Source: a virus
Length of the DNA stretch: 44,557 bases
Strand: one strand, 5' to 3'
IMG/VR virus record: IMGVR_UViG_3300048536_000095
Coordinates: 1-44,557 of that record
Below are positions 4,717-42,001 of the stretch, piece after piece. Position 1 is the stretch's first letter. The number at the start of each line of letters is the position of its first letter. The translations under genes were made by a program, and so were the position numbers. The notes below the pieces were generated by a model, which was given only the letters and a program-made list of their open reading frames with translations, did no database searches and was not told where the DNA came from.

Positions 4717-5622
4717 ATGGCTATTTCTCGCGCACAGGCGCTAAAAGAGCTTCTTCCGGGCCTTAACGCCCTGTTTGGTTTAGAGTACGACAAGTACGAA
4801 AACGAACACGAAGCCATCTACGAAACCGAGTCTTCGGAGCGTAGTTTTGAAGAGGAAGTGAAACTTTCAGGTTTTGGCGCTGCGCCAACTAAAGCTGAAG
4901 GTGCTGCTATCTCGTATGATAACGCGCAGGAATCATTCACTGCCCGTTACAATCATGAAACTGTGGCTATGGGTTTCTCTATCACTGAAGAAGCGATGGA
5001 AGATAACCTGTATGATTCACTGTCCACCCGCTACACTAAAGCACTAGCTCGCGCTATGGCTTATACTAAGCAGGTTAAGGCAGCGGATTTGCTGAACACA
5101 GGCTTCGCCACCTTTAACTCAGGTGATGGCGTTACGCTGTTCAACACTGCACACCCCACAGTATCGGGCGCTACAAACGGCAACCGCCCTGCGGTAGCTG
5201 CTGACCTGAATGAAACCTCGCTTGAGCAAGCAGTAATTGATATTGCAGCCTACGTCGATGAACGTGGTCTTCTTATCGCTGCGCGTCCACGCAAGCTCAT
5301 CATTCCTACAGGTCTTATGTTCGTGGCAACACGCTTGCTGGAAACCACAAACCGAGTGGGTACAGCCGATAATGACATTAACGCTCTTAACTCAAACGGT
5401 TCTATTCCGGGCGGTTATACGGTTAACCATTATCTGACTGATGCAGATGCGTTCTTTATCACTACTGATATTCCGAATGGCATGAAGCATTTTGAGCGTA
5501 CCGCGATGACAACATCTATGGATGGTGACTTCGATACAGGTAACGTGCGCTATAAAGCGCGTGAGCGTTATTCGTTTGGTGTCTCTGATCCGCTGGGTAT
5601 CTACGGTTCCCCCGGAGCCTAA
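4717..5622 (+). CDS. Major capsid protein (HK97-fold type)
   Basis: A 301-residue coat protein that builds the icosahedral head. It has an acidic N-arm (YENEHEAIYETESSERSFEE), then the pattern typical of Mu gpT-like/HK97-fold coats: TARYNHETVAMGFSITEEA, a long helix of Ala/Lys/Tyr (TKALARAMAYTKQVKAADLL), LFNTAHPT, and RPRKLIIPTGLMFVATRLL. It ends in RYSFGVSDPLGIYGS. A strong aaggag site lies 8 bases upstream of the ATG. There is no obvious N-terminal delta domain, consistent with a separate scaffold gene. A terminator follows directly, as expected for a highly expressed coat gene at the end of a unit. Confidence 0.88.
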   Translation: MAISRAQALKELLPGLNALFGLEYDKYENEHEAIYETESSERSFEEEVKLSGFGAAPTKAEGAAISYDNAQESFTARYNHETVAMGFSITEEAMEDNLYDSLSTRYTKALARAMAYTKQVKAADLLNTGFATFNSGDGVTLFNTAHPTVSGATNGNRPAVAADLNETSLEQAVIDIAAYVDERGLLIAARPRKLIIPTGLMFVATRLLETTNRVGTADNDINALNSNGSIPGGYTVNHYLTDADAFFITTDIPNGMKHFERTAMTTSMDGDFDTGNVRYKARERYSFGVSDPLGIYGSPGA

Positions 5623-6029: not shown

Positions 6030-6176
6030 ATGAGTAGGTTTACACCACCCTCTAAAGAAGAACTCGCCTGTCGGGGTTTAAATCCTGATGGTACAGAAAT
6101 CAAGAAAGCGGCTGCTAAACCCGCCTTGGCTAAGAAAAAGGCACCCAAGAAGGCTGCTTCTAAGAAAAAGGACTAG
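6030..6176 (+). CDS. 48-aa Lys/Ala-rich basic protein
   Basis: The ATG at 6030 opens a 48-codon frame ending in TAG at 6174-6176, three bases before the next gene. It begins MSRFTPPSKEELACRGLNPD and ends in an Ala/Lys/Pro repeat (KKAPKKAASKKKD) resembling the tails of bacterial histone-like proteins. It is the first of six basic mini-proteins here. Tight packing against both neighbours (10 and 3 bases) supports it as real. DNA or RNA binding inside the head is plausible but inferred from charge only. Confidence 0.65.
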   Translation: MSRFTPPSKEELACRGLNPDGTEIKKAAAKPALAKKKAPKKAASKKKD

Positions 6177-6179
6177 AGC

Positions 6180-6467
6180 ATGGCTGGTCAAGAAGTTAGA
6201 GCTTACAATGTGTCTGTGTCAGGCTTTAGTGCAGGACTTGTAGGACCATCACGGGGCAGGTTGCAGGGTGTTTTAGTTAATGCCGCCGCAGCTTGTGCGT
6301 TTACCATACGTAGTGGTAGCGCCACAGGGGAGGTTCTACTTGACCTTACACTCCCTACAGGTTGGAATGATGTGTATATCCCTAATGATGGTATACTTGC
6401 CGATAACGGTTGTTTTGTCTCTGCCTTTACAGGTAGCGGCAATGTAATAACCTTATTAATAGAGTAA
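6180..6467 (+). CDS. Small beta-rich virion protein
   Basis: A 95-residue neutral protein (MAGQEVRAYNVSVSGFSAGL...) with alternating hydrophobic residues typical of a beta sandwich: RGRLQGVLVNAAAACAFTIR, then EVLLDLTLPTGWNDVYIPND, then GCFVSAFTGSGNVITLLIE. It has no enzyme motif or transmembrane segment. It lies amid basic mini-proteins in the minor virion block. Probably a decoration or fibre-associated virion protein; a firmer call is not possible. Confidence 0.6.
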   Translation: MAGQEVRAYNVSVSGFSAGLVGPSRGRLQGVLVNAAAACAFTIRSGSATGEVLLDLTLPTGWNDVYIPNDGILADNGCFVSAFTGSGNVITLLIE

Positions 6468-6473
6468 ACCGCT

Positions 6474-6755
6474 ATGGCGTCAAAAGGTGAAATGCCGAAG
6501 CGCAACAAAAAGAATTTCCGCTCTACTAAGTCAGGGGCGGGGATGACAAAGGCGGGTGTCGCTGCTTATAGGCGCAAAAATCCCGGCTCTAAGTTAAAAA
6601 CCGCTGTTACGGGTAAGGTCAAAAAAGGCAGTAAAGATGCCAAGCGGCGCAAGTCGTTCTGCGCTCGTTCTGCTGGACAGATGAAGCAGTTTCCCAAAGC
6701 AGCAAAAAACCCTAATAGCCGTCTACGACAGGCTAGAAGACGCTGGAAGTGTTAG
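6474..6755 (+). CDS. Basic Arg/Lys-rich protein (DUF6321-like)
   Basis: A 93-residue, very basic protein with the pattern SGAGMTKAGVAAYRRKNPGS followed by LKTAVTGKVKKGSKDAKRRK, SFCARSAGQMK and a final PNSRLRQARRRWKC. I recognise this signature from small proteins of marine T4-like and podovirus-like phages, annotated from memory as DUF6321. Function is unknown. The two Cys (the SFCARS site and the C-terminal residue) are retained in relatives as I recall. The charge suggests nucleic-acid contact inside the virion. Confidence 0.7.
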   Translation: MASKGEMPKRNKKNFRSTKSGAGMTKAGVAAYRRKNPGSKLKTAVTGKVKKGSKDAKRRKSFCARSAGQMKQFPKAAKNPNSRLRQARRRWKC

Positions 6756-6763
6756 GATAGATT

Positions 6764-6985
6764 ATGAAAAACGAAGATGCAGTTACAAAGTATAAACGGG
6801 AAGAGAAAAAGCTATTAGCAGACTCTAAAGCGTTTCAAAAAAACAAAAATAAAAAACGCAAGACTGATCCTTCTAACTTAGATAGACCATCTATGATGAA
6901 TAAAGGTGGTATCCTTAAAATGCGTAGTGGCGGCAAAATAGATGGCTGCGCCATGCGGGGTAAAACTAAGGGGCGATATGTCTAA
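6764..6985 (+). CDS. Small basic protein with GG-box motif
   Basis: A 73-residue protein in two parts. The first (about residues 1-42) is a Lys/Glu-rich helical segment. The second has MNKGGILKMRSGG (residues 45-57) followed by KIDGCAMRGKTKGR. The GG-flanked motif recurs in other virion proteins of this window (27108, 29396, and loosely at 8385-8816). The stop overlaps the next start by 8 bases. Function is unknown; I recall the 'GGKIDGCAxRGKTKG' ending from other marine phage proteins. Confidence 0.6.
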   Translation: MKNEDAVTKYKREEKKLLADSKAFQKNKNKKRKTDPSNLDRPSMMNKGGILKMRSGGKIDGCAMRGKTKGRYV

Positions 6986-7169
6986 AGCAAAACCTTCAAA
7001 TGCAGCATTGTGGTCGAAAGCTAAGTCTGCGGCCAAGGCTAAGTTCAAGGTCTACCCTTCCGCTTATGCAAATGCTTGGGCTTCTAAATGGTACAAGTCC
7101 AAGGGCGGTGGTTGGTCAGGCGGCAACAACAAGGTAGCTAAACGTGGCAAAAGCACCAAAAAAGGGTAA
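6978..7169 (+). CDS. 63-aa basic conserved protein
   Basis: I chose the ATG at 6978 (a ggggcgat site precedes it, with an 8-base overlap on the upstream gene) rather than an in-frame upstream ATG at 6942 that would run deeper into that gene. Residues 1-40 (KPSNAALWSKAKSAAKAKFK, then VYPSAYANAWASKWYKSKGG) match a family of small phage proteins I recall with the core 'YPSAYANAW...YK..GG'. The tail is Gly/Lys-rich. Function is unknown. Part of the basic mini-protein cluster. Confidence 0.65.
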   Translation: MSKAKPSNAALWSKAKSAAKAKFKVYPSAYANAWASKWYKSKGGGWSGGNNKVAKRGKSTKKG

Positions 7170-7389
7170 AGGCGGTCTTGGCAAATGGTTTGGCGAAGAT
7201 TGGAGAGATGTTAAGACAGGTAAAGCCTGTGGACGTAAATCTGCTAAAGGTAAGTCCAAGCGTCCCTACCCCGCCTGTCGCCCTAAGAAAGTGGCGTCTA
7301 AGATAACTAAGTCCGAGGCCACAAAGAAAACTGGGCCTAAGCGGGTAAAATGGTCTACTACTGCTAGTGGTAAGAAGAGGACTAAATAA
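7144..7389 (+). CDS. Basic Cys-containing protein (DUF5872-like)
   Basis: An 81-residue protein with a GTG start, overlapping the previous gene by 26 bases. The signature GGLGKWFGEDWRDVKTGKAC, then GRKSAKGKSKRPYPACRPKK, matches the small phage family I recall as DUF5872: a W-F-x-E-x-W box and two Cys in CGRKS and YPACRP. It is strongly basic, with a Lys/Ser/Thr tail. The two Cys could pair or bind metal, but nothing in the sequence proves it. The stop overlaps the next ATG (TAATG at 7387-7391). Confidence 0.65.
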   Translation: MAKAPKKGKGGLGKWFGEDWRDVKTGKACGRKSAKGKSKRPYPACRPKKVASKITKSEATKKTGPKRVKWSTTASGKKRTK

Positions 7390-8075
7390 TGGCTACAGTC
7401 GTACCTGACCTACCTGAGTTGTTTGAGGAAGCCTATGAACGTGCTGGCCTGCAGATGCAGACAGGGTATGACTTACGTACTATACGTCGTAGCCTTAACA
7501 TATTAACCCTAGAGTGGCAGAACAGGGGTCTTAACCTATTTACTATTGACTCTGGAACAGTTGGTCTAGTTGCGGGGCAGGCTACACATACTATGCCTGC
7601 GGACACAATTGATCTTATTGAACATCAACTACGTACTGGTACAGGTACAAGTCAGGTAGACACAGCATTGCAGCGTGTTAGTGTGTCTACATACGCACAG
7701 CAGACTAACAAGAACACTGTAGGACGGCCCACGCAAATATATGTGCAGCGGCTACCCACAGAAGTAAAGTTTACACTGTGGCCTACACCGGATACTACAC
7801 AGGCTTACCAACTACTATACTTCCGCCTCAAGGGTATTGACGGTCTTGCATCAGGTGTGGGGGGAGAAACAAGTAACATACCTCCACGGTTTGTGCCTGC
7901 ACTCGTATCAGGACTAGCGTTTCATGTAGCTATGAAGAAACCCGAAGCTGCGGCTAGAGCAGTGCCTCTTAGAGAAGAATATGAATATCAGTTTAAGTTA
8001 GCCGCGTATGAGGATCAAGATCGCGCATCTTCTATGTTTGTACCCTTTCAAACTTTTCACGGTGGTATGAGATGA
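7389..8075 (+). CDS. Head-tail adaptor / tail accessory factor
   Basis: A 228-residue protein resembling head-completion adaptors that sit under the portal (P22 gp4-like, T7 gp11-like). The N-terminus is a helical bundle with a Leu/Trp/Gln motif (RRSLNILTLEWQNRGLNLFT). A beta region follows (GQATHTMPADTIDLIEHQLR; VKFTLWPTPDTTQAYQLLYF), and the C-terminal part is helical (AMKKPEAAARAVPLREEYEY). It occupies the usual adaptor position downstream of the capsid gene. A second adaptor-like gene lies at 8822. Role is inferred from pattern and context. Confidence 0.65.
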   Translation: MATVVPDLPELFEEAYERAGLQMQTGYDLRTIRRSLNILTLEWQNRGLNLFTIDSGTVGLVAGQATHTMPADTIDLIEHQLRTGTGTSQVDTALQRVSVSTYAQQTNKNTVGRPTQIYVQRLPTEVKFTLWPTPDTTQAYQLLYFRLKGIDGLASGVGGETSNIPPRFVPALVSGLAFHVAMKKPEAAARAVPLREEYEYQFKLAAYEDQDRASSMFVPFQTFHGGMR

Positions 8076-8380
8076 GCTACGCGTCTGGTAAATACGCATA
8101 CGGTATATGTGACCGGACGGGGTTTAGATACCCACTAGAAGACCTTGTATGGGAATTTCAAGACGGACATAGAACTGGTTTCCGTGTTGGTAAAGATGTA
8201 GTTGATCCAGATCAACCACAGAATTTCTTGGGGCGTATTCGGGTTGTTGACCCACAGTCCCTTTTTAACCCTAGACCGGACTATGCGCCGGGACGGGGGC
8301 TTTGGGGTTGGAACCCTGTAGGCCATGAACTTGTCCGCTTAACTGGACAGGTTGGAACTGTAACTATAGAGATAGGATAA
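8072..8380 (+). CDS. Conserved small virion protein
   Basis: A 102-residue protein with an ATGA overlap on the adaptor gene. Aromatic and Gly residues are frequent: YASGKYAYGICDRTGFRYPL, WEFQDGHRTGFRVGKDV, DPQSLFNPRPDYAPGRGLWG. The ICDRTGFRYP stretch looks like a short loop of a beta-rich fold. Only one Cys is present, so a zinc ribbon is unlikely. I recall this family from phage structural modules next to the adaptor. A connector or tail-knob component is plausible but unproven. Confidence 0.6.
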   Translation: MSYASGKYAYGICDRTGFRYPLEDLVWEFQDGHRTGFRVGKDVVDPDQPQNFLGRIRVVDPQSLFNPRPDYAPGRGLWGWNPVGHELVRLTGQVGTVTIEIG

Positions 8381-8384
8381 GATT

Positions 8385-8816
8385 ATGCCAAGTGGACCCG
8401 GAACATATGGAAGTAAACGTGGACGCCCCCCTATGAAGATGAAACCCGGAGGGCGCGTTGGCAGTAAAAAACCTGACAACAGCGCGGCTAAGAAAAAATA
8501 TACTTTGGATACTCACCAAGGCGGCAAACGTATTCGTAGCGATAAACAAGCTAAAATGATACCTATGGACCTTTCAGGAAAGGCTAGTTCTAGTGGCTAT
8601 AACCGCCCACACAAAACCTTATATGAAATGGACAGTGGACCTACTCCTAACAAAAAACGGGTTGGTCGCGCTGGCGCTAGCTTAACCAAGAAGAAGGCTG
8701 GCGGTAAAGTAACCAAGAAGAAGGCTGGCGGTAAAGTTATGAAGAAGATGGGTGGTGGTACACTTGCTCGCGGTAGCGGTGCAGCGCGACCTCAAAAATT
8801 CCGCAAAAACGGGTAA
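8385..8816 (+). CDS. Very basic protein with KKKAGGKV repeats
   Basis: A 143-residue protein dominated by Lys, Arg and Gly. It opens with a GG-box-like element (MKMKPGGRVGSKK). The C-terminal third carries tandem KKKAGGKVTKKKAGGKVMKKMGGG elements, encoded by a perfect 27-base tandem duplication. No globular domain is apparent. The charge suggests DNA condensation or ejection-linked DNA contact, with the GG boxes possibly a docking element. Both ideas are inference. It ends just before the second adaptor-like gene. Confidence 0.6.
   Translation: MPSGPGTYGSKRGRPPMKMKPGGRVGSKKPDNSAAKKKYTLDTHQGGKRIRSDKQAKMIPMDLSGKASSSGYNRPHKTLYEMDSGPTPNKKRVGRAGASLTKKKAGGKVTKKKAGGKVMKKMGGGTLARGSGAARPQKFRKNG
8684..8737 (+). 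repeat. Perfect 27-bp tandem repeat (x2)
   Basis: Two identical 27-base units at 8684-8710 and 8711-8737 encode two copies of a 9-residue TKKKAGGKV element. The unit is exactly nine codons, so gain or loss of copies would keep the frame. A diverged third partial copy (GTTATGAAGAAGATGGGTGG) follows. Confidence 0.9.
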
Positions 8817-32188: not shown

Positions 32189-35100
32189 ATGGGTCAAATA
32201 TCTGTTCCGGGTCCGTATAGCGGTAGAAGCTACCCTATAATTATTGCAGGTGACGTACCTACTGATGAAGAATATGGACGCATATCTGAATATATCCGTA
32301 CTCAAGAAGCCGCTGTTAAGGCTGATCTTGAAAGCAAGTACGGAGATGTAGAAGGGCCAGATGACGGCACTGCTATTGGTCGTGCTTATCGCAGAGCTAA
32401 AGGCAGTGGTTCTCAGGCTATTGGCGACTTAATAGAAACTGTTGGTCAAAAAACTGGAATTGCTGCACTAGCCGATTACGGTACAGATTACGCAGAAGAA
32501 GCCCGACAAGAGCTTGGCGATGAACTTATTCTACAATCTATAGCACAACGTCCTGTGGGTCGTTATCAAGATGTAAATGACTTTAGTACCGGACTTGAGT
32601 ACCTAGGAGGATTAGTAGGTGGTACAGGCTCATCCCTTGAGAGTGGTTTAAAAGGCGGTATAGCTGGTGGTATTGCAGGATCGGTAATTCCCGGTGCAGG
32701 TACATTGTCAGGGTTTGGCGCAGGCTTTACTGCAGGATTAGTTCCTGAGTTTGCAGGTAAGAATATACAGGCGCAAGAAGCTGTTAAAGGTAAAGACAAT
32801 GTAAGCCTTACTACGGCAGTTGGCACCGCTGTTGCTCAAGCCTTAGCTGAACGTCTGGGCCTCAAAGCTATGGCAGCTATGGGTATTAGCCCTAATGCTG
32901 TTGGCAAGAAGGTTACACAACGTATCCTTAGTGGAGCGTTTAAAGGTGGTGGGACCGAAGCCCTTACCGAAACATTCCAAACCGCTGCTGAACGCATACA
33001 GTCTGGTGCGCCTATGGATCAAGTGTTTGATGAAGAGGGCATAGATCAGCTAAAGAACGCTTTTGTCGGCGGTGCATTGCTTGGTACTGGAGCAGGTGGT
33101 GTTGCTGGTGGTATTCGCGGCCCAAGACCCGAACCTATAGTAAATGTAGACCCTGATGCCGTACCTCCTGCAGGAGAGCCGCAAGGAGAATTAGATTTAG
33201 ATGGGGCTACTCAACCTGCAACAACTAGCGGATTAACAACTGACTACGCTACAGACGCTGAAAAGCTGGCCGAATACGAAGCACTTATGGCTCCGTTACG
33301 AGAAGAAAGAATAAAATCAGAAAGTCCTTTAGAAAAAGAAAGACGTGAATCTATAGAGTCTATGCCTAAACCTAAACCTGTTAAGGCTCCAAAAGAAACA
33401 CAGCTTGATTTGTTTGCCGAAAACAAAGCAAAATCCCCTACTACTGCCGCAGAACGTGCAGACAACAGAGTTTTTGCTGAAGCAGACAAAGCTAATACTG
33501 AATTTGACAATGCTGCGAGAGCGGCAGATATAGAAGCTAAAAAACTTAAAGAACGCGAAGATGCAGCTCAAGCACGGGCTGACAAAACTAAAGCAACTAA
33601 AGATTTAAAAGCTGCAGAGGAAGCAAAAAAGGAAGCCGACAAAGCTGCATTAGCTGCTAAAAAAGTTCAAGAACGCGCTGACAAAGCAAAAGCCAAAACT
33701 GAGTCGCGCACCGCTGGACCCACGGTTGAAGAAGATACTAGCGAGATTGATCTTGCCGCTAACCTTGCTGCTAGTAAAGCTCAGACAGAAACAGATCAAA
33801 AACGTGATGTTGAAGACGTTGAGACAAGCACAGGCACTGTCGAAGTAGAAGAAACTAACCCTGTTGATCCTGTTACTGTAGACTCTACAAAGCTACGTAC
33901 TTTTAAAGACTACTTAGTTGATAAAATAGACGCTAACGATGTTAAGGCTGCGGAGTTTATACAATCTGTAGCTAGTCCTGAAGACATAGCCACTGCTAGA
34001 ACATTAGGTTTTGATATACCTAATGACAATGCTACATACGCTGACATTGTTAGAGCTATTACACCCAATGCTGAACCTGTTGTTGAGCCACGCACCGCTG
34101 GAGATAAGGTCAAGGCTACGCCTGTTGTTGAGCCGCGCACCGCTGGAGATAAGGTTGAGGCCGCGCCTGTTGTACCTGATACTGTAGAAGCAAGCCTTGA
34201 CCGAAATGCTTCAGGTGTAGGCGCAGCAGGTAGAGGGTTAAGACCAGAAAATGTACCTGCGGGTATAGAAGGTGTAGCTAGAACTCCTAAACCTGTAGGG
34301 CCTACTACAGAGACTATAGCTGATGTTGAAGCGAGAGATAACGCCACTAAAGCCGAGAACAAAGCTCTACAAGAACGTATACGTAATATTATAATTAACA
34401 AATACATACCTAAAACGTACAAGTCTGCAGCCGTTGACCGTAAAACATATGGCAAACTTCTTATCGCTGCCGCATATGTTATAGACCCTGAGACGGGCAA
34501 TCGCAGCTTAAACTATATGGACCCGACAAGCATTGCGGATAAAGAACAAATTATATTCTTGTTAGAAGCCACGCCTAAAGAATTAAAAGCAAAGTTTACC
34601 GATCCAGAATTATACAAAAGTGCGCTAGCGGCTAAGAAATATTTTAAGGTCTCTTTAAATGCGGGGTTAGCTATAGATGAATTAGCACACGACATAGCAT
34701 ATGGTAATGCCAAGTCTTCTTTTGAAGCAGGCATGTCAGTCGAGCAACAGGTGTTTAACGCGGGAAGAAATAAACCTGCTGCATTTGCGGCTAAAGATTG
34801 GTTAGAAGAGTTTTTAGAACCTGAAACTTTTAAATACTACAAAGATAGAGTTAGAGCTGAAATACAAGTTCAAGCAGGCACTAAAGCTGCGGCTAGACGT
34901 AGGGCTACAGCAGATACAGAAAGAAGCAAGCAAGCAGGTTTTGAAGAAGCATTTGCTGATGATAATGTAGCAAAGGGGTCTAATAAATCTCAAGCAGCGG
35001 CTTTTAGAAAGGCTCAAGAAGACCTTGAAGCGCAAGCAGAAGCAGATCGCCAGCGAGCTAGTGCGGAAAGCATAACGTTGGGTGCAGGGGTAAGCGCAGT

Positions 35101-38100
35101 ACCCGAACGACAAGGCCCATCTAAAGCAGGGTTTACAGCTAATAAAAAAGCTCAAGCACAAGCCGCATTTAATAAGTTTGTAGAAGAAAGTGGACTGTTT
35201 AAACCACTACCTGCTGAGAGTGTAGTATACCTAGATGATCCTATGTCGCCTAGCGCGATGGGTTTCTTAGGTTCGGGTATGTTAAAAGAAACACTGTATG
35301 CTATTGCTCAAGGTACGAACTACCCTAAATTGGCTAAGATCGCTAACAAGCTGGCAGACATGGCGGGTACTACCAAGATAGTGTTCGTGCCAGACCTTGT
35401 GGACATGGACGGTGCGCCCTCGGCAGGGCAGTTTGATCCTAGGACAAACACTATTTCTATAAACCCTAAATCAGGTATGAACACGCACACTGTTTTGCAT
35501 GAAATGGTACATGCCGCTGTTTCTGCATCCTTGGCTAAGAACTCTGCTAGCACATTGGCGCTGCGTAATGTGTTCAACGATGTGAAAGACGTACTAGATA
35601 CTGAGTATGGGTCTACAAACCTAGACGAGTTTATTTCTGAAGCGTTAACCAATCCAGCGTTTCAAGAGAAGCTAGGACAGCTAGTGTATAAGGGCGACCT
35701 GCATAAAGGTAAGACCGCCCTACAACGTCTATATAATGCTATCACTAACTTTGTGCGGCGCATGATCGGCTTGCAGCCCAAGCCTTTGACCTCTGCCCTA
35801 TCGGAGATAGACTATCTGATAGAAGGTATGTTGGCCCCTGCCCCACAGTTCCGTGATGCGGATTCTCTTGCGTTGATGACACCCGCCGCCGCTAACGGCT
35901 TCCTAAACACTGCCATTACAAATGGGCCTATCTTCAACAACGCAGGTAAGACGCGATATCTAGCTTGGATCGAAGATGCTACAAAGAACGTAAGCCTCGG
36001 GCTGTTTGGCGGGGCAAATAAATTCTTAATGCAAGCTACGCCTCTGCACTACCTAGCTGACATATCTGAGAAAGACTTTGGTGATTTAGGGGCTAAATTA
36101 AACACTACCGTTAATGAAGCTAACGGAGCCTATGGTAAGCAGATTGACGAGTTGAAGAACACCCTGCTACCTATAGTACAATGGGGCAAAGATAACAAAG
36201 GACTGCAGGATCAGTTCAATAGAATGGTGAACGAGGCCACGCGCCGTGAAGTTGACCCTGTGCTTGACCGTCCCGCCGCAGTCAAAAAGTACGGCAAAGA
36301 CCCTGAGAAAATGGCTAATTGGGAGCAGGTTAGAAGCGACTACGAAGCCTTAGTGAACGCTAGTCCCGCAGTCGTGCGTATATATGCCACCATGCGTAAC
36401 CTATTTCGTGGCCTACGAAACGACATTAGAAACGCTGTAGACGAGCGGCTTACTATAGCCATACCTGATGGTGCTGTACGCGCTAGGGTTATGAAGAGTT
36501 TTTATGACAAGCTGACTTCCAAAGGCACCATAGAACCCTACACCCCCTTGGAGCGTGAAGGAGACTTGTGGCTATACTATAATGCTATTGATCCGCTTAC
36601 GGGTAATCTTGAGCGGTATGCCGAATCTTTCACCACACCTGCTGCTAGAGCTAGAGCATGGTCTGAAATTCAAGGTAAAGTGCGTGATGATATACGGGGC
36701 AATCAGAAACTTATGTCTAGTATGACTGAGTTGGTTCGACAAAAGAAACACGCCAATATAGAAGAGGCTATAGACGCACAGGTAGGCGTCACTGAGGCAG
36801 CATCTATATCCGAAGTAAACTTTAACAACGCGCCCCCCGCATCTTTTATCGCGCAGCTTACAAAACAGATACGTGATAACAGCCCTAGCGACACTAAAGA
36901 ACAGCGAGAAACTACCAACAAAATAATAAACGAAATTGGTGAGTTGGTTCTTAACACTATCCCAGAGACCTCCTACATGCAGTCGTTTCGCACTCGTAAG
37001 GGCACATTAGGTAATATAGAGGACGCTATACGTGCCACCACAAAACGTGCGACCTTGCTGGGTAGGCAAGCTGTGCAAATGAAGTACGGCAATAAGTTCG
37101 ACGCAATAAAAGTAGAACTGAAAGCGGCTTATGACAAAGCGGGTGGAGAGGGTAACACAACCCCCGCCATGAGAGATATGTACGACACTTTGGTATCTTT
37201 TGCTGACAGTGGAACTGGCGTCAACAGAAGTAACTTTTCTAAATTCCTTACCAATCTTGGCTTTAACATGACGCTAGGATTTAACGTGTCTGGTGCTTTG
37301 GTTAACCTTTCGCAGATACCCCTTACAGTATTCCCTGTATACGGTGCTAAGTATGGGTACGACAAAACATCCTCTGCTATAGGTGAGGCCATGCGCCTTA
37401 TTCATAACAGTGGCCGCAAGCGTATGGTTGAAGTATACGGCGATAAGGTTGACGCAGAGGGCAACCCTATCAAGGAAATGCAAGAAGTAACTGGAACTCC
37501 CGCAGACAGGTCTGTAAGCAATTACGACTATGCAAACGAGACCGATCCCCGAAAGAAGCGTATGCAGTTTGCAGTGGGTGTAGGTGAACGACTAGGTTTG
37601 TTCAAACGCACACTAGCTTACGACATGCTAGACATAGACGGTACTAACGGCGGTATGGAAAAGTTTAACGCCGCATCGGGCTTTATGCTGCACCACGGAG
37701 AGCGGATTAACCGTGAGGTAGCCTTTACCGCTGCGTATAACCTTGAGGCAGATATACTAGATGCTCAAGCCGCCAAGGATAACCGTACTGTAAGTGATGC
37801 TGAGTATGAGCAAGCGGCTGAAAAAGCGTTCTACATGGTCGAAATGACCAACGGTGGTAGCGCATCGGCGGCTTCACCCCAGATAATGCAGGGGTCTATC
37901 GGATCGGTGGTCTTTATGTATAAGCGTTACGGTGTGTCTATGCTGTCCCTGCTACATAAACTGGCAAAAGAGGGAATGGTCGGTCAGTCTGCTGAAGCTA
38001 AAAAACTAGCCGCTTATCAACTCGCGGGTATATACGGATCGGCTGCGCTTATGTCAGGTGTGCGCGGTGTGCCTTTCTTTGGCGCGGCGGCTATGGTTTA

Positions 38101-38854
38101 CAACCTACTCAAAGACGATGATGAAGAATCCATGCAATCCATAGTGCGTAGGGTTACGGGCGAAGGATATTACTCGGGTGCTGTAAACTACGTAACAGGT
38201 ACTAACGTGGCTACACGTATCCAGTTGTCCGATCTGCTGTTTAGAGACACACTGATAGATCGTGACCAACCCGCCATATGGACTGCCGTAGAGATGTTGG
38301 GTGGACCTGCTATAGGTATTGCGTTGCAGATGGATCGGGCGGCTGATTTGTTTGCAGCGGGTGAATTTGCTAGAGGAGCAGAAGCCTTTGCGCCATCGGC
38401 AGCGCGTAACGTGATGAAGAGTGTGCGGTTCTATAAAGACGGTGGGGCCGAAACCTTAGCAGGCGATATCATCGCTCCTGTGCATCCTCTACACGCAGTC
38501 ACACAAGCCCTAGGGTTCATCCCCGCAGAGTTGGCTCGGGCCTACGAATTAAATGCTGAAATAAAAAGCATGGAAAAAGGTACTAAGGCCAGACGCAAGC
38601 GTATCCTAGATGAAATCGCTAGGGCCAGAGCAGACGGTGACAATGCAGCCGAACAAGCGGCCTATGACAAAATACCTGCGTACAACGCGGATCATCCTGA
38701 TTGGCCTATAAACGGCAAGTCTATAGAGAAATCCATGAACAGCCGTGCTGAGACTACATCTAAAAAGTTCCAAGGCATATCCATACACCCCAAACTACGG
38801 GATACATACATGGACTTTGCGGATCAGTTTAGTGGTAAAGCTACTATGTTTTAG
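32189..38854 (+). CDS. Large polyvalent ejection protein with HExxH motif
   Basis: A 2221-residue protein. About residues 140-200 are Gly/Ala-rich and hydrophobic (GGIAGGIAGSVIPGAGTLSG), possibly membrane-penetrating. About 290-312 hold a second Gly-rich segment. About 390-520 are charged and coiled. Near 630-660 a 15-residue element (PVVEPRTAGDKV) is duplicated. A zinc-metalloprotease motif HEMVH is at H1104-E1105-H1108, with a possible third ligand E1147 or E1151 in NLDEFISEAL. The C-terminal half has RTRKGTLGNIEDAIRATTKR and a hydrophobic segment near 1944-1975. This fits the phage 'polyvalent protein' type; the internal virion role and cleavage target are inference. Confidence 0.7.
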   Translation: MGQISVPGPYSGRSYPIIIAGDVPTDEEYGRISEYIRTQEAAVKADLESKYGDVEGPDDGTAIGRAYRRAKGSGSQAIGDLIETVGQKTGIAALADYGTDYAEEARQELGDELILQSIAQRPVGRYQDVNDFSTGLEYLGGLVGGTGSSLESGLKGGIAGGIAGSVIPGAGTLSGFGAGFTAGLVPEFAGKNIQAQEAVKGKDNVSLTTAVGTAVAQALAERLGLKAMAAMGISPNAVGKKVTQRILSGAFKGGGTEALTETFQTAAERIQSGAPMDQVFDEEGIDQLKNAFVGGALLGTGAGGVAGGIRGPRPEPIVNVDPDAVPPAGEPQGELDLDGATQPATTSGLTTDYATDAEKLAEYEALMAPLREERIKSESPLEKERRESIESMPKPKPVKAPKETQLDLFAENKAKSPTTAAERADNRVFAEADKANTEFDNAARAADIEAKKLKEREDAAQARADKTKATKDLKAAEEAKKEADKAALAAKKVQERADKAKAKTESRTAGPTVEEDTSEIDLAANLAASKAQTETDQKRDVEDVETSTGTVEVEETNPVDPVTVDSTKLRTFKDYLVDKIDANDVKAAEFIQSVASPEDIATARTLGFDIPNDNATYADIVRAITPNAEPVVEPRTAGDKVKATPVVEPRTAGDKVEAAPVVPDTVEASLDRNASGVGAAGRGLRPENVPAGIEGVARTPKPVGPTTETIADVEARDNATKAENKALQERIRNIIINKYIPKTYKSAAVDRKTYGKLLIAAAYVIDPETGNRSLNYMDPTSIADKEQIIFLLEATPKELKAKFTDPELYKSALAAKKYFKVSLNAGLAIDELAHDIAYGNAKSSFEAGMSVEQQVFNAGRNKPAAFAAKDWLEEFLEPETFKYYKDRVRAEIQVQAGTKAAARRRATADTERSKQAGFEEAFADDNVAKGSNKSQAAAFRKAQEDLEAQAEADRQRASAESITLGAGVSAVPERQGPSKAGFTANKKAQAQAAFNKFVEESGLFKPLPAESVVYLDDPMSPSAMGFLGSGMLKETLYAIAQGTNYPKLAKIANKLADMAGTTKIVFVPDLVDMDGAPSAGQFDPRTNTISINPKSGMNTHTVLHEMVHAAVSASLAKNSASTLALRNVFNDVKDVLDTEYGSTNLDEFISEALTNPAFQEKLGQLVYKGDLHKGKTALQRLYNAITNFVRRMIGLQPKPLTSALSEIDYLIEGMLAPAPQFRDADSLALMTPAAANGFLNTAITNGPIFNNAGKTRYLAWIEDATKNVSLGLFGGANKFLMQATPLHYLADISEKDFGDLGAKLNTTVNEANGAYGKQIDELKNTLLPIVQWGKDNKGLQDQFNRMVNEATRREVDPVLDRPAAVKKYGKDPEKMANWEQVRSDYEALVNASPAVVRIYATMRNLFRGLRNDIRNAVDERLTIAIPDGAVRARVMKSFYDKLTSKGTIEPYTPLEREGDLWLYYNAIDPLTGNLERYAESFTTPAARARAWSEIQGKVRDDIRGNQKLMSSMTELVRQKKHANIEEAIDAQVGVTEAASISEVNFNNAPPASFIAQLTKQIRDNSPSDTKEQRETTNKIINEIGELVLNTIPETSYMQSFRTRKGTLGNIEDAIRATTKRATLLGRQAVQMKYGNKFDAIKVELKAAYDKAGGEGNTTPAMRDMYDTLVSFADSGTGVNRSNFSKFLTNLGFNMTLGFNVSGALVNLSQIPLTVFPVYGAKYGYDKTSSAIGEAMRLIHNSGRKRMVEVYGDKVDAEGNPIKEMQEVTGTPADRSVSNYDYANETDPRKKRMQFAVGVGERLGLFKRTLAYDMLDIDGTNGGMEKFNAASGFMLHHGERINREVAFTAAYNLEADILDAQAAKDNRTVSDAEYEQAAEKAFYMVEMTNGGSASAASPQIMQGSIGSVVFMYKRYGVSMLSLLHKLAKEGMVGQSAEAKKLAAYQLAGIYGSAALMSGVRGVPFFGAAAMVYNLLKDDDEESMQSIVRRVTGEGYYSGAVNYVTGTNVATRIQLSDLLFRDTLIDRDQPAIWTAVEMLGGPAIGIALQMDRAADLFAAGEFARGAEAFAPSAARNVMKSVRFYKDGGAETLAGDIIAPVHPLHAVTQALGFIPAELARAYELNAEIKSMEKGTKARRKRILDEIARARADGDNAAEQAAYDKIPAYNADHPDWPINGKSIEKSMNSRAETTSKKFQGISIHPKLRDTYMDFADQFSGKATMF
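34076..34165 (+). repeat. 45-bp tandem repeat (x2) inside polyvalent gene
   Basis: Two 45-base units (34076-34120 and 34121-34165) differ by five bases and encode two copies of P-V-V-E-P-R-T-A-G-D-K-V-x-A-x. A related RTAG element lies near 33707. The unit is 15 codons, so copy-number change keeps frame. It lies in a low-complexity linker between the coiled and catalytic parts. Confidence 0.85.
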
Positions 38855-38943: not shown

Positions 38944-39171
38944 TCACGTTATTCTCCAGAGGCGTACACCTAATTTAGCATTTTCGACACGGACTTGCAT
39001 TTTTATTGTCCATTTTTTCCGCTTTTCTACATTTTTTACCTGTTGGTGTGCTTTTTCGGTATTTATGCAAGGTATAAAAGCGGAACCGCCGACTTCTAAA
39101 TTACCCCAATCAACGGTTATTTTAATTCCGTCAGGGTCTAAATCATCAATCATCAACACTTTGCGGTTCAT
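38944..39171 (-). CDS. Small conserved protein, end of replication operon
   Basis: A 75-residue protein whose start overlaps the primase gene's end by 26 bases. Pattern: KITVDWGNLEVGGSAFIPCI, then QQVKNVEKRKKWTIKMQVRV and a final LGVRLWRIT. The VGxSxFIPC and G-[VI]-R-[LV]-W-R elements recur in small phage proteins I recall, with no known function. It is last before the operon's terminator. Confidence 0.6.
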   Translation of the reverse strand: MNRKVLMIDDLDPDGIKITVDWGNLEVGGSAFIPCINTEKAHQQVKNVEKRKKWTIKMQVRVENAKLGVRLWRIT

Positions 39172-42001
39172 CTAGTACTCCTTCTGAGTAGTCCACCACT
39201 ATACACCGCGATGGAGGTAGGTTTAGGTGAGTACCTTTACTCAACCGCATCTGCACCTTCCTTGCGCCCATAGTATCAGTCATGTCTTGCACAAGATTGT
39301 CGAAACTTATCTGGTGATCTGTGCAGTATTTTTTCAACGGCTTTGGCAGTAAGAATAGTTTTTGCGTATCTATCTCGTACCGTGCAACAAAGTGATTGCG
39401 TGGTGTGGCCTCGGGAACTGCACCGCCGTAGTCTAAAGCATTGCCATTCACAGAAGCCCGTAGATCAGCGGTGCTTTTGATCTGCAAAATATTATTGTTG
39501 TTCTCAAACACGTAGTTGTTAAGTGTCTCAGACACAGAAGAACCTACATCGCTTACTATGTTCTTACGTATAGTGACCTGTTGCACCACCCACTTAAACA
39601 ACGCAGCGGTATCCCAATCTACTATACCCAACTTCTTGGCTACAACTACACCCGCCAAAATAGCCCCACACCCTGCCGACCAGAACCTATGCTCGGGTTC
39701 CAATGCCGCAGCTTTATCTATACGTGCCTGTATACCCAACACTAAAGCTGCTACCTCGTCACGGTTGTTTATAACATGCTGCACAAACTTGGTGGCAAAC
39801 CAACCGTGATTAGATTTTATGTCGGTGAATATCTTGTCGGTTATCGGCTTGATGCTTGGGTCTTTAAGCGACTTGTCTACTTTTATCTCTAACATCCTAA
39901 GCATTTCTGCGTGAGGTATCTCTTTGTTTCGGGTCAGCAATTCCCACAGGCTTATGTTAGCAGAGGTGACACCAATCAACTCCCAAGGATCACCCCTATG
40001 TCTTTCTGTATTACCGTCACTAGACATACGGTTCTTCTGCATACCACCCGACAGTTCGTACACGTATTTAGAAGCCCAATCTGGCGTTATGTTTGTCATT
40101 TCATCAGAACTTAGCGGTAGGTTACGCATCAATTCGGCCCTGTTCATTCGGGCGTTATGCGTGTCTGCGTGATGGTTCATCAAGGCTTCGGGTCTGCCGT
40201 ATATACCCAATGCCGCCCTCATAGCCGTGGTCTTACCCACACCCGATCCACCAAACAGATGAACACCCATACTGTTTTGTCCTGTAAAGGGCATGAGTAT
40301 AGAGCCAAACCCAGAGCCTATAACAAACTGATGTAGTTGAAAATTCTCACGGTTATAAAACGCAAACATTTCTAACTGCCTAGCCTCTGATCCTTTAGGT
40401 TCAAAGGTAGAAAACAACCCTGCTGTCTTTTTAGATGGGGGGTTATATTCAACACTGCCACCTAATATAAGCCTGTCTCCTAGTACAAAGGCTTCTTGTT
40501 TATCATTAGTCCACCCAAATTGTAGGTGCGCTTCGTCAGACGCTGCCGCCGACTGCAATTCATCTATCCACTTAGTTGTGTAAGCCATTAGCTGATCCAA
40601 TTTGTTGCCCCATGTGGTAATACCGTTCATAGCCACAATTTTACGGAACTCTTCTTTTGAAGTTATCGCAGACATAGGCGCAGTAAACTCCCGCACTCCG
40701 TCCTGTGGTAAGTGTAATCTAAACACCACTACATAACCTCCCAGTGAAGCGTCGTGTAGTAATCGTGTTACGTAGAAGTCGTTGTGGTAGATTACCTCTT
40801 CTTCTACGTCCCCGTCAGCGTTCTTCTTACGTACATACACGCCGCCGTGTGCACCTCGCACGTAGGGCTTAGGGTAAGGGGGTATCATGTGTTTGGTAGA
40901 CGATGCCGAGAACGGATCATCCTCTACTTCATCCTCACTTAGGGCTTCTTTTAACCGTTCACCCAGAACCTTCGGACTTTTTATTTTACCCCAATTAGGG
41001 CAATCCATACAGATATCAGGGTTGTTATCGTCAAAGGTAGCGCACTTGTAAGCTATATCTCTAACACCTAACTCCGCAGCCTTGCCTTCTATGTAGTCCC
41101 ATTTCTTATCTGTTTCCTGCTCCGAATAACCTTCGTAGCCCTTAGATATTTTGTGAGCCTTGGCCCTGCTACCATCCTTACAGGCTTGCAGTACGCTAAG
41201 GACACCGCGCCATGTAGGTTCAGATACTTCGTCTTTCGCTTTTATAGCATGTAGTATCTGAGCACAGCCGCGCCCTGCTCGGGTCTTTTCTATAATGTCC
41301 TTAAAGACGTACTCTTTGTTGCTGTTGAGCGTGTCCCACACTGCGCTGCTATCCCTGCTCTCATGGGGGGATAATGTCGGTTCGGGTCGCTCACCAAACA
41401 GGCCCATGAACTCGTCTAGTATAACGGGTTCAGGTATATCAACGCCATACAGTTCCACAGGTGCAGGTGGATCGGACTTGTAGTTATGTGTATTAGGTAC
41501 GCGTAGCACTCTGGCTGCATCAGCGGTTACTACAGGATCGGCTTTAAGCCCACTGCTAACACATATTTGCTTTACACGCTCTGCTACAGGTATCCAATCA
41601 TCCACAGCTAGGGCTTCGGATAAAAACCAGTAAACATGCACACCGTTACCCGAGTTTACCATTAGCGGCTTAGGCAACTCGTACTGTTTGCAGAACTTAC
41701 GCAGTGCCGATACAGCTTCGGTTTTAGATGGATAATCCTTACTAGGCCCACAGTCTAAGTCTAAGAATATAGACCTTAATTGGTGGACGTTATCTGCTTT
41801 CCTGTTTTCGGTTGTCTTAAAGGTAGCCAGTGCAAAGTACACATCGTACCCGTCAGCGTCCAAGTCTTGAGCGGCAGCTTCTACTTCATCTACTGTGTCA
41901 TAAAATTTCTGTACTCTGCGGTTATCTCTGCTCCGAGCCGCAAACACACAATAGTTACCCTCACTCCCCAGAACCCTGCTTAGAAACGTTTTTATTATCA
42001 T
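39146..42001 (-). CDS. Primase-helicase: AEP-type primase fused to DUF927-type helicase
   Basis: A 951-residue replication protein. The N-terminal domain has archaeo-eukaryotic primase marks: the D81-x-D83 metal site in FLDLDCG, the SGNGVHVYW box (H122), and D161 in ADAARVLRVPN. Middle region: C246, then C320, C331 and C334, possibly zinc-binding. The C-terminal helicase has Walker A GGSGVGKTT (K590), Walker B-like D633-E634 in LPLSSDEMTN, and the ELSGGMQKNRMSSDGN loop of DUF927-type ATPases. It would prime and unwind DNA in one chain. It overlaps the 75-aa gene downstream; an agagg site precedes the ATG. Confidence 0.85.
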   Translation of the reverse strand: MIIKTFLSRVLGSEGNYCVFAARSRDNRRVQKFYDTVDEVEAAAQDLDADGYDVYFALATFKTTENRKADNVHQLRSIFLDLDCGPSKDYPSKTEAVSALRKFCKQYELPKPLMVNSGNGVHVYWFLSEALAVDDWIPVAERVKQICVSSGLKADPVVTADAARVLRVPNTHNYKSDPPAPVELYGVDIPEPVILDEFMGLFGERPEPTLSPHESRDSSAVWDTLNSNKEYVFKDIIEKTRAGRGCAQILHAIKAKDEVSEPTWRGVLSVLQACKDGSRAKAHKISKGYEGYSEQETDKKWDYIEGKAAELGVRDIAYKCATFDDNNPDICMDCPNWGKIKSPKVLGERLKEALSEDEVEDDPFSASSTKHMIPPYPKPYVRGAHGGVYVRKKNADGDVEEEVIYHNDFYVTRLLHDASLGGYVVVFRLHLPQDGVREFTAPMSAITSKEEFRKIVAMNGITTWGNKLDQLMAYTTKWIDELQSAAASDEAHLQFGWTNDKQEAFVLGDRLILGGSVEYNPPSKKTAGLFSTFEPKGSEARQLEMFAFYNRENFQLHQFVIGSGFGSILMPFTGQNSMGVHLFGGSGVGKTTAMRAALGIYGRPEALMNHHADTHNARMNRAELMRNLPLSSDEMTNITPDWASKYVYELSGGMQKNRMSSDGNTERHRGDPWELIGVTSANISLWELLTRNKEIPHAEMLRMLEIKVDKSLKDPSIKPITDKIFTDIKSNHGWFATKFVQHVINNRDEVAALVLGIQARIDKAAALEPEHRFWSAGCGAILAGVVVAKKLGIVDWDTAALFKWVVQQVTIRKNIVSDVGSSVSETLNNYVFENNNNILQIKSTADLRASVNGNALDYGGAVPEATPRNHFVARYEIDTQKLFLLPKPLKKYCTDHQISFDNLVQDMTDTMGARKVQMRLSKGTHLNLPPSRCIVVDYSEGVLDEPQSVDD

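Follow-up and report, generated by a model that had tools for sequence, protein, structure and literature searches.

A mosaic cassette of small, very basic proteins beside phage head genes and its possible kinship in function with T4 internal proteins

The IMG/VR virus record IMGVR_UViG_3300048536_000095 (positions 1 to 44,557; the whole of this 44,557-base stretch is called the window below) carries six genes for small, very basic proteins beside its head genes, and the question that the locus raises is what so many separate polycations do at this place. A prediction made from the letters alone (the original prediction) had proposed a multi-part nucleic-acid-binding set within the virion. The answer that we favour, with modest confidence, is that these genes belong to a cassette, a hypervariable locus for virion-internal basic proteins, which would work much as the internal proteins of phage T4 do while being drawn from unrelated families: DUF6321, a two-gene DUF5872, and lysine- and glycine-rich proteins that bear common terminal motifs.

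The six open reading frames (ORFs) were found as described, with products of 48-143 aa, net charges of +9 to +32 and pI 10.2-12.0 (Table 1). The claimed overlaps, 8 nt between the 73- and 63-aa ORFs (6978-6985) and 26 nt between the two DUF5872 parts (7144-7169), and the exact 27-base internal duplication are likewise present. For the 63-aa ORF, the ORF list prints an upstream ATG at 6942; the ATG at 6978 is the start used here. From the gene for the major capsid protein (MCP) to that for a 220-aa virion protein, the proteins between and around the six basic ones are neutral or acidic. What did not hold is the picture of a single uninterrupted cluster between capsid and adaptor. Five of the ORFs do lie between the MCP and the SU10-type adaptor, but an acidic 95-aa ORF splits them, and the sixth, of 143 aa, stands downstream of the adaptor, from which a 102-aa ORF separates it.

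The basic character of this region extends to relatives of the phage. With the capsid protein as query, a scan of viral contigs found 80 loci, and 82 distinct MCP-adaptor intervals (that of the window and 81 others, from the loci fetched up to that count) were compared. At least three small basic ORFs were present in 75 of the 82. Small ORFs with pI > 9.5 made up 352 of 517 in the intervals versus 156 of 516 in the rest of those contigs (Fisher p 1e-34), as counted on non-independent contigs with a home-made ORF caller, which is crude enough to have replaced the 63-aa gene of the window by an out-of-frame ORF. Gene content, in contrast to charge and position, turns over while the capsid stays about 80-90% identical, and DUF6321 and the DUF5872-type pair recur most. 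The cassette is mosaic: its basic charge and its position are kept, and its genes are swapped.

The reading frames themselves are conserved. The ratio of non-synonymous to synonymous substitution (dN/dS) was determined pairwise by NG86 against relatives of at least 70% identity, with overlap codons removed and pairs that are non-independent. The medians were 0.027 for DUF6321 (22 of 48 pairs usable), 0.046 for the DUF5872 N-part (26 of 67) and 0.056 for the C-part (22 of 83), compared with 0.083 for the capsid and 0.060 for the adaptor gene; few pairs underlie the values for the 73-aa (0.12, three pairs), 48-aa (0.29, one usable of two) and 143-aa ORFs (0.28, five pairs). The dN/dS near 1 that the original prediction had named as the sign against it was thus not found.

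One could envision that the interval is instead a hot-spot at which late genes for host takeover or anti-defence are inserted; their products would act in the cell, and the charge would reflect DNA- or RNA-binding regulators. Gene content indeed varies strongly among phages with MCPs more than 80% identical, and T4 IPI is described in part of PMC9026906 as an anti-restriction protein. We nevertheless consider a hot-spot of this kind distinctly unlikely, given that DUF6321 and the DUF5872 pair are retained, their dN/dS being no higher than that of the capsid gene, and accompany head or packaging genes into unrelated phages, and that one DUF6321 protein is found in virions.

DUF6321 is the family for which published virion data are available. 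The 93-aa protein of the window scores 51.7 bits against PF19846, above the curated cut-off of 28.5, and is a free-standing member of the family, whereas in cyanomyoviruses and others the domain makes up the last ~72 residues of far longer proteins. It is predicted to form four helices (pLDDT 80), and a comparison of this model with the Protein Data Bank (PDB) gave no match of note. The protein ends in W-x-C in 87 of 97 distinct DUF6321 ORFs. At E <= 0.01 the domain was detected in 314 of 50,697 phage records, chiefly those of Synechococcus, Prochlorococcus and Pelagibacter phages. In 12 of 13 annotated records (HTVC023P, P-HM2, DSL-LC04, S-CREM2, S-SCSM1, P-SCSP1k, P-SCSP2, CRP-7, S-TIP28, S-CRM01, RB11-B and S-SZBM1) the gene lies a few genes from the MCP, scaffold, adaptor or terminase, the sole exception being HTVC010P. 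P-SCSP1k has it between the MCP and the gp11 adaptor, and in the T7-like P-SCSP2 the scaffold and MCP genes enclose DUF5872-N-like, DUF5872-C and DUF6321 genes. Genome contigs, mostly metagenome- or single-cell-derived assemblies, added 79 loci, 37 of which were taken as viral by a homologue of a window head/tail or T4-type protein within 5 kb.

In S-CREM2, DUF6321 is the last domain (residues 415-488 of 490) of ORF137 (108049-109521), and Table 3 of PMC10665884 lists this protein as detected in CsCl-purified virions from 4 unique peptides, at 4.1% coverage. S-SCSM1 gp029 also carries the domain, and its own record labels the product 'virion protein'; passages of the S-SCSM1 paper (PMC9602691) report 45 detected proteins and do not name gp029. 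The P-HM2 DUF6321 protein is assigned to cluster T4-GC119, which the relevant part of PMC3037559 mentions merely as part of a gene cassette. Among the literature searched, DUF6321 was named in no paper and DUF5872 in one (PMC12085832), and nothing was found on the cassette. Published mass spectrometry supports a virion location for DUF6321, as do its recurrent place beside head or packaging genes and the T4-type N-termini of one subfamily described below; for the other five proteins it is suggested by their linkage. To this extent the virion-internal set of the original prediction is plausible.

The same gene neighbourhoods allow another explanation, namely that the basic proteins are DNA-packaging accessories, which bind DNA or terminase during pumping or help to retain DNA at the portal, rather than stable virion cargo. 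DUF6321 lies between the terminase small and large subunits in P-HM2, S-CREM2, S-CRM01 and S-SZBM1 and immediately ahead of the large subunit in S-TIP28 and CRP-7, and CRP-2 and HMO-2011 have DUF5872 genes upstream of terminase. Yet ORF137 of S-CREM2 is present in finished virions, whereas its flanking terminases, ORF135 and ORF138, are missing from the stretch between ORF134 and ORF139 in the structural section of that table, and the mosaic turnover of the cassette is ill-suited to an essential part of the motor. We regard a packaging role as unlikely.

The second recurrent component is a single Pfam family, DUF5872 (PF19197), which is split over two overlapping genes of the window. Its first half is matched by the 63-aa protein with 21.2 bits and its second by the 81-aa protein with 25.0 bits, each below the curated cut-off of 27.5 for the domain; a homologue of the N-part, gp70 of CRP-2, scores 44 bits. 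The family names in the original prediction were thus apt for both DUF6321 and DUF5872. In the window the C-part is in the +1 frame relative to the N-part, a layout seen in many contigs. Among distinct cases, the parts overlap in 85 (37 in the +1 and 48 in the +2 frame; the C-gene starts were picked by rule, which may over-count overlaps), are adjacent in 5, lie 61-400 nt apart in 25 and farther apart in 12; 6 further cases are fused and 15 N-parts have no C-part nearby. A split caused by programmed frameshifting or sequencing error was rejected in view of the overlapping pairs in both frames, the separated genes and the six fusions. Because the two-gene protein is sometimes fused, its parts may well act together.

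At other loci, too, DUF5872 has head and packaging families among its neighbours. In 20 of 71 eligible loci without a match to the window MCP, adaptor, t220 or DUF6321, a survey of 57 neighbouring proteins found portal, MCP, terminase and adaptor families among them. HTVC023P gp50-gp52 (L082, 11242-12056) are, in a row, a protein starting with ITRGQISKQV, a DUF5872-N-like protein that ends in a GGGAAVRGMGF-type motif, and DUF5872-C; this trio lies about 5 kb past the capsid gene and adjoins a peptidase M15 gene. The N-like and C-like labels in HTVC023P and P-SCSP2 rest on motif reading. An unannotated DUF5872-C-like frame was also seen between annotated genes of DSL-LC04 (L086, about 4722-4972). 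A tblastn search of phages with the DUF5872-N protein and two of the motif-bearing proteins gave no match, and the model of a fused DUF5872 protein (L144; pLDDT 69, confident in the N-part only) had no match of note in the PDB.

Several unrelated basic proteins have short terminal motifs in common. Motifs were counted in 41 capsid-fetched intervals (309 interval ORFs versus 531 others) with patterns written after viewing the interval proteins, so that the enrichment is descriptive. The C-terminal pattern C1, [IR]DGxAxRGKTKGRxV, occurs in 15 interval ORFs and in none of the others, at most 5 residues from the C-terminus in 14. The N-terminal pattern N1, SRxxMxxQ, occurs in 14 interval ORFs, 2-3 residues past the start in 13 of them, and in 2 other ORFs, internally in both. 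A second C-terminal pattern, C2 (RGxGAAx..F), belongs to outside ORFs: 14 of the 531 carry it, all at most 6 residues from the C-terminus, versus 1 of the 309, and several of these ORFs are directly downstream of the adaptor like that of the window. Two C1 proteins each occur in five loci, three of them near-identical; the set compared for this included loci retrieved by means of the C1 protein of the window. A C1-like tail also follows W-x-C in two DUF6321 proteins. Terminal tags common to different bodies resemble interchangeable address signals.

This resemblance suggests a tentative hypothesis, which we think more doubtful than probable: that podovirus-type marine phages without a T4-like address use terminal tags of their own (N-terminal ISRxxMxxQL; C-terminal [IR]DGxAxRGKTKGRxV and RGxGAAxxGxxF), along with a C-terminal DUF6321, to bring interchangeable basic proteins into the head or neck, so that several cargo families would have one loading code in common. 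In T4, according to the passages on targeting in PMC9026906, residues 4 and 7 of the capsid-targeting sequence direct the protein and residues 8 and 10 govern its processing. We represented such starts by the pattern M..[FY]..F[LI].E (T4 IPII and IPIII begin MKTYQEFIAE; NC_000866). When a query bearing such an N-terminus was used to collect 69 DUF6321 ORFs, 18 of them had starts of this kind, versus 25 of 1523 background ORFs. Homologues of gp21 and gp23 were present on 3 of 20 DUF6321 contigs.

If the cassette does supply virion-internal proteins, the small basic proteins would be made late alongside the capsid, taken into the prohead during assembly, kept in contact with the packaged DNA and, probably, carried along with it into the host. 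Their likely similarity to T4 IPI, IPII, IPIII and Alt is one of function without common descent. As described in part of PMC9026906, the T4 proteins too are small, basic and variable among relatives, bind DNA at low salt and have a terminal address common to different bodies. They differ in that no sequence relation to the window proteins is seen and the motifs of the latter are their own. Among the head-gene proteins scanned, which are part of the window proteins, no stand-alone prohead protease domain was matched, nor any protease family save the MCP part of MCP/protease fusion families. Chlorovirus PBCV-1 likewise carries several different basic DNA-binding proteins in its virion (PMC3281028), although it is a eukaryotic virus.

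Another possibility is that the proteins condense the genome as the core proteins of adenoviruses and baculoviruses do. The 48-aa ORF, for which family scans gave no match, has a tail that we take to be like that of histone H1. One copy of each of the six proteins sums to +124, so that by simple arithmetic it would take about 72 copies of each to offset 10% of the phosphates in 44.6 kb of DNA, and condensation would need copy numbers like those of T4, for which part of PMC9026906 gives ~360 of each internal protein. Small cations, however, are generally used in phage heads (PMC3281028), and DUF6321 and the DUF5872 N-part are predicted to be folded and are highly conserved, unlike simple protamines. 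We consider condensation very improbable. The ends of three longer relatives of the 48-aa ORF read KKRGRPKK or KKRGRPSK. The RGRP core is that of the DNA-binding AT-hook; as no more than 3 of the 309 interval ORFs have it, besides the 143-aa ORF, the AT-hook idea was dropped.

Several observations weigh against an internal-protein cassette of the T4 kind. None of the ORF starts in the window, that of the DUF6321 copy included, is of the T4 capsid-targeting type. A less biased rescan, with a member of the subfamily (L153) minus its first 35 residues as the query, found T4-like starts in 3 of 69 DUF6321 ORFs, the background count being 15 of 1314 (p 0.057). Where loci had T4-like markers, none of the 6 DUF6321 ORFs began in this way; such N-termini as a general property of DUF6321 are thereby weakened to a subfamily trait. 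DUF6321 occurs in very large proteins, of up to 1143 aa, and hence need not act as a free polycation. Because the coverage of S-CREM2 ORF137 was just 4.1%, the peptides listed may come from outside the domain. Of S-SZBM1 particles, 30 proteins were detected (PMC9146016, Table 1), and S-SZBM1_192, which has DUF6321 and is 165 aa long, is not one of them; a literature search found no virion proteome for a member of this phage's own family. Finally, PMC3281028 reports no evidence that basic proteins contribute much to the neutralisation of phage DNA.

Table 1. Positions in the window of the basic ORFs and of the genes that border or interrupt them
Feature	Position	Strand	Basis
Major capsid protein (MCP), left cassette border	4717..5622	+	phrog_371 major head protein, E 2.8e-22
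48-aa basic ORF, net +9, A/K/P-rich tail	6030..6176	+	ORF translation
95-aa acidic ORF within cassette, outside basic set	6180..6467	+	pI 4.5; weak phrog_28102 match, E 0.06
93-aa DUF6321 protein, net +29, ends W-K-C	6474..6755	+	PF19846, E 1.4e-13
73-aa basic ORF, net +14, C-terminal motif GGKIDGCAMRGKTKGRYV	6764..6985	+	ORF translation, motif count
63-aa DUF5872 N-part, net +16	6978..7169	+	PF19197 positions 1-43, E 4.7e-4, below cut-off
81-aa DUF5872 C-part, net +24, GTG start	7144..7389	+	PF19197 positions 50-111, E 3e-5, below cut-off
SU10-type head-tail adaptor, right border of main cassette	7389..8075	+	PF24175, E 7.3e-12
143-aa basic ORF, net +32, C-terminal motif GGTLARGSGAARPQKFRKNG	8385..8816	+	ORF translation, motif count
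Tandem 27-nt duplication inside 143-aa ORF	8683..8737	+	Identical 28-nt word at 8683 and 8710

Within its first 10 kb the window has genes for a portal, a GroES-like protein, a scaffold-like protein (so named by position), the capsid, the adaptor and more virion proteins. A search of the phage collection with its first 25 kb gave no near match, and when the MCP, adaptor, DUF6321 and DUF5872-C sequences were compared with those in the PDB, no convincing match was found. The co-chaperonin GroES-like gene (2330-2698; phrog_3188, E 1.2e-12) lies between the portal and scaffold-like genes, and one is present at the same place in HTVC023P and DSL-LC04. A 2221-aa ORF (32189-38854), for which a Pfam scan was empty at E 0.001, possibly encodes a giant virion protein, and a 951-aa protein with a DUF927 domain (E 1.7e-25) is encoded on the opposite (-) strand at the right end (39146-42001). 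The 62.5-kb contig NYWV01000005.1 (L485), binned with a metagenome-assembled genome of Porticoccaceae, has the same head genes (MCP 90%, DUF6321 97-98%) and is a possible lead to the host of this phage group.

If the basic proteins are carried in the head, abundant ocean phages would deliver a set of them together with their DNA, and the terminal motifs, if their proposed role is true, would provide a testable rule to predict such cargo.

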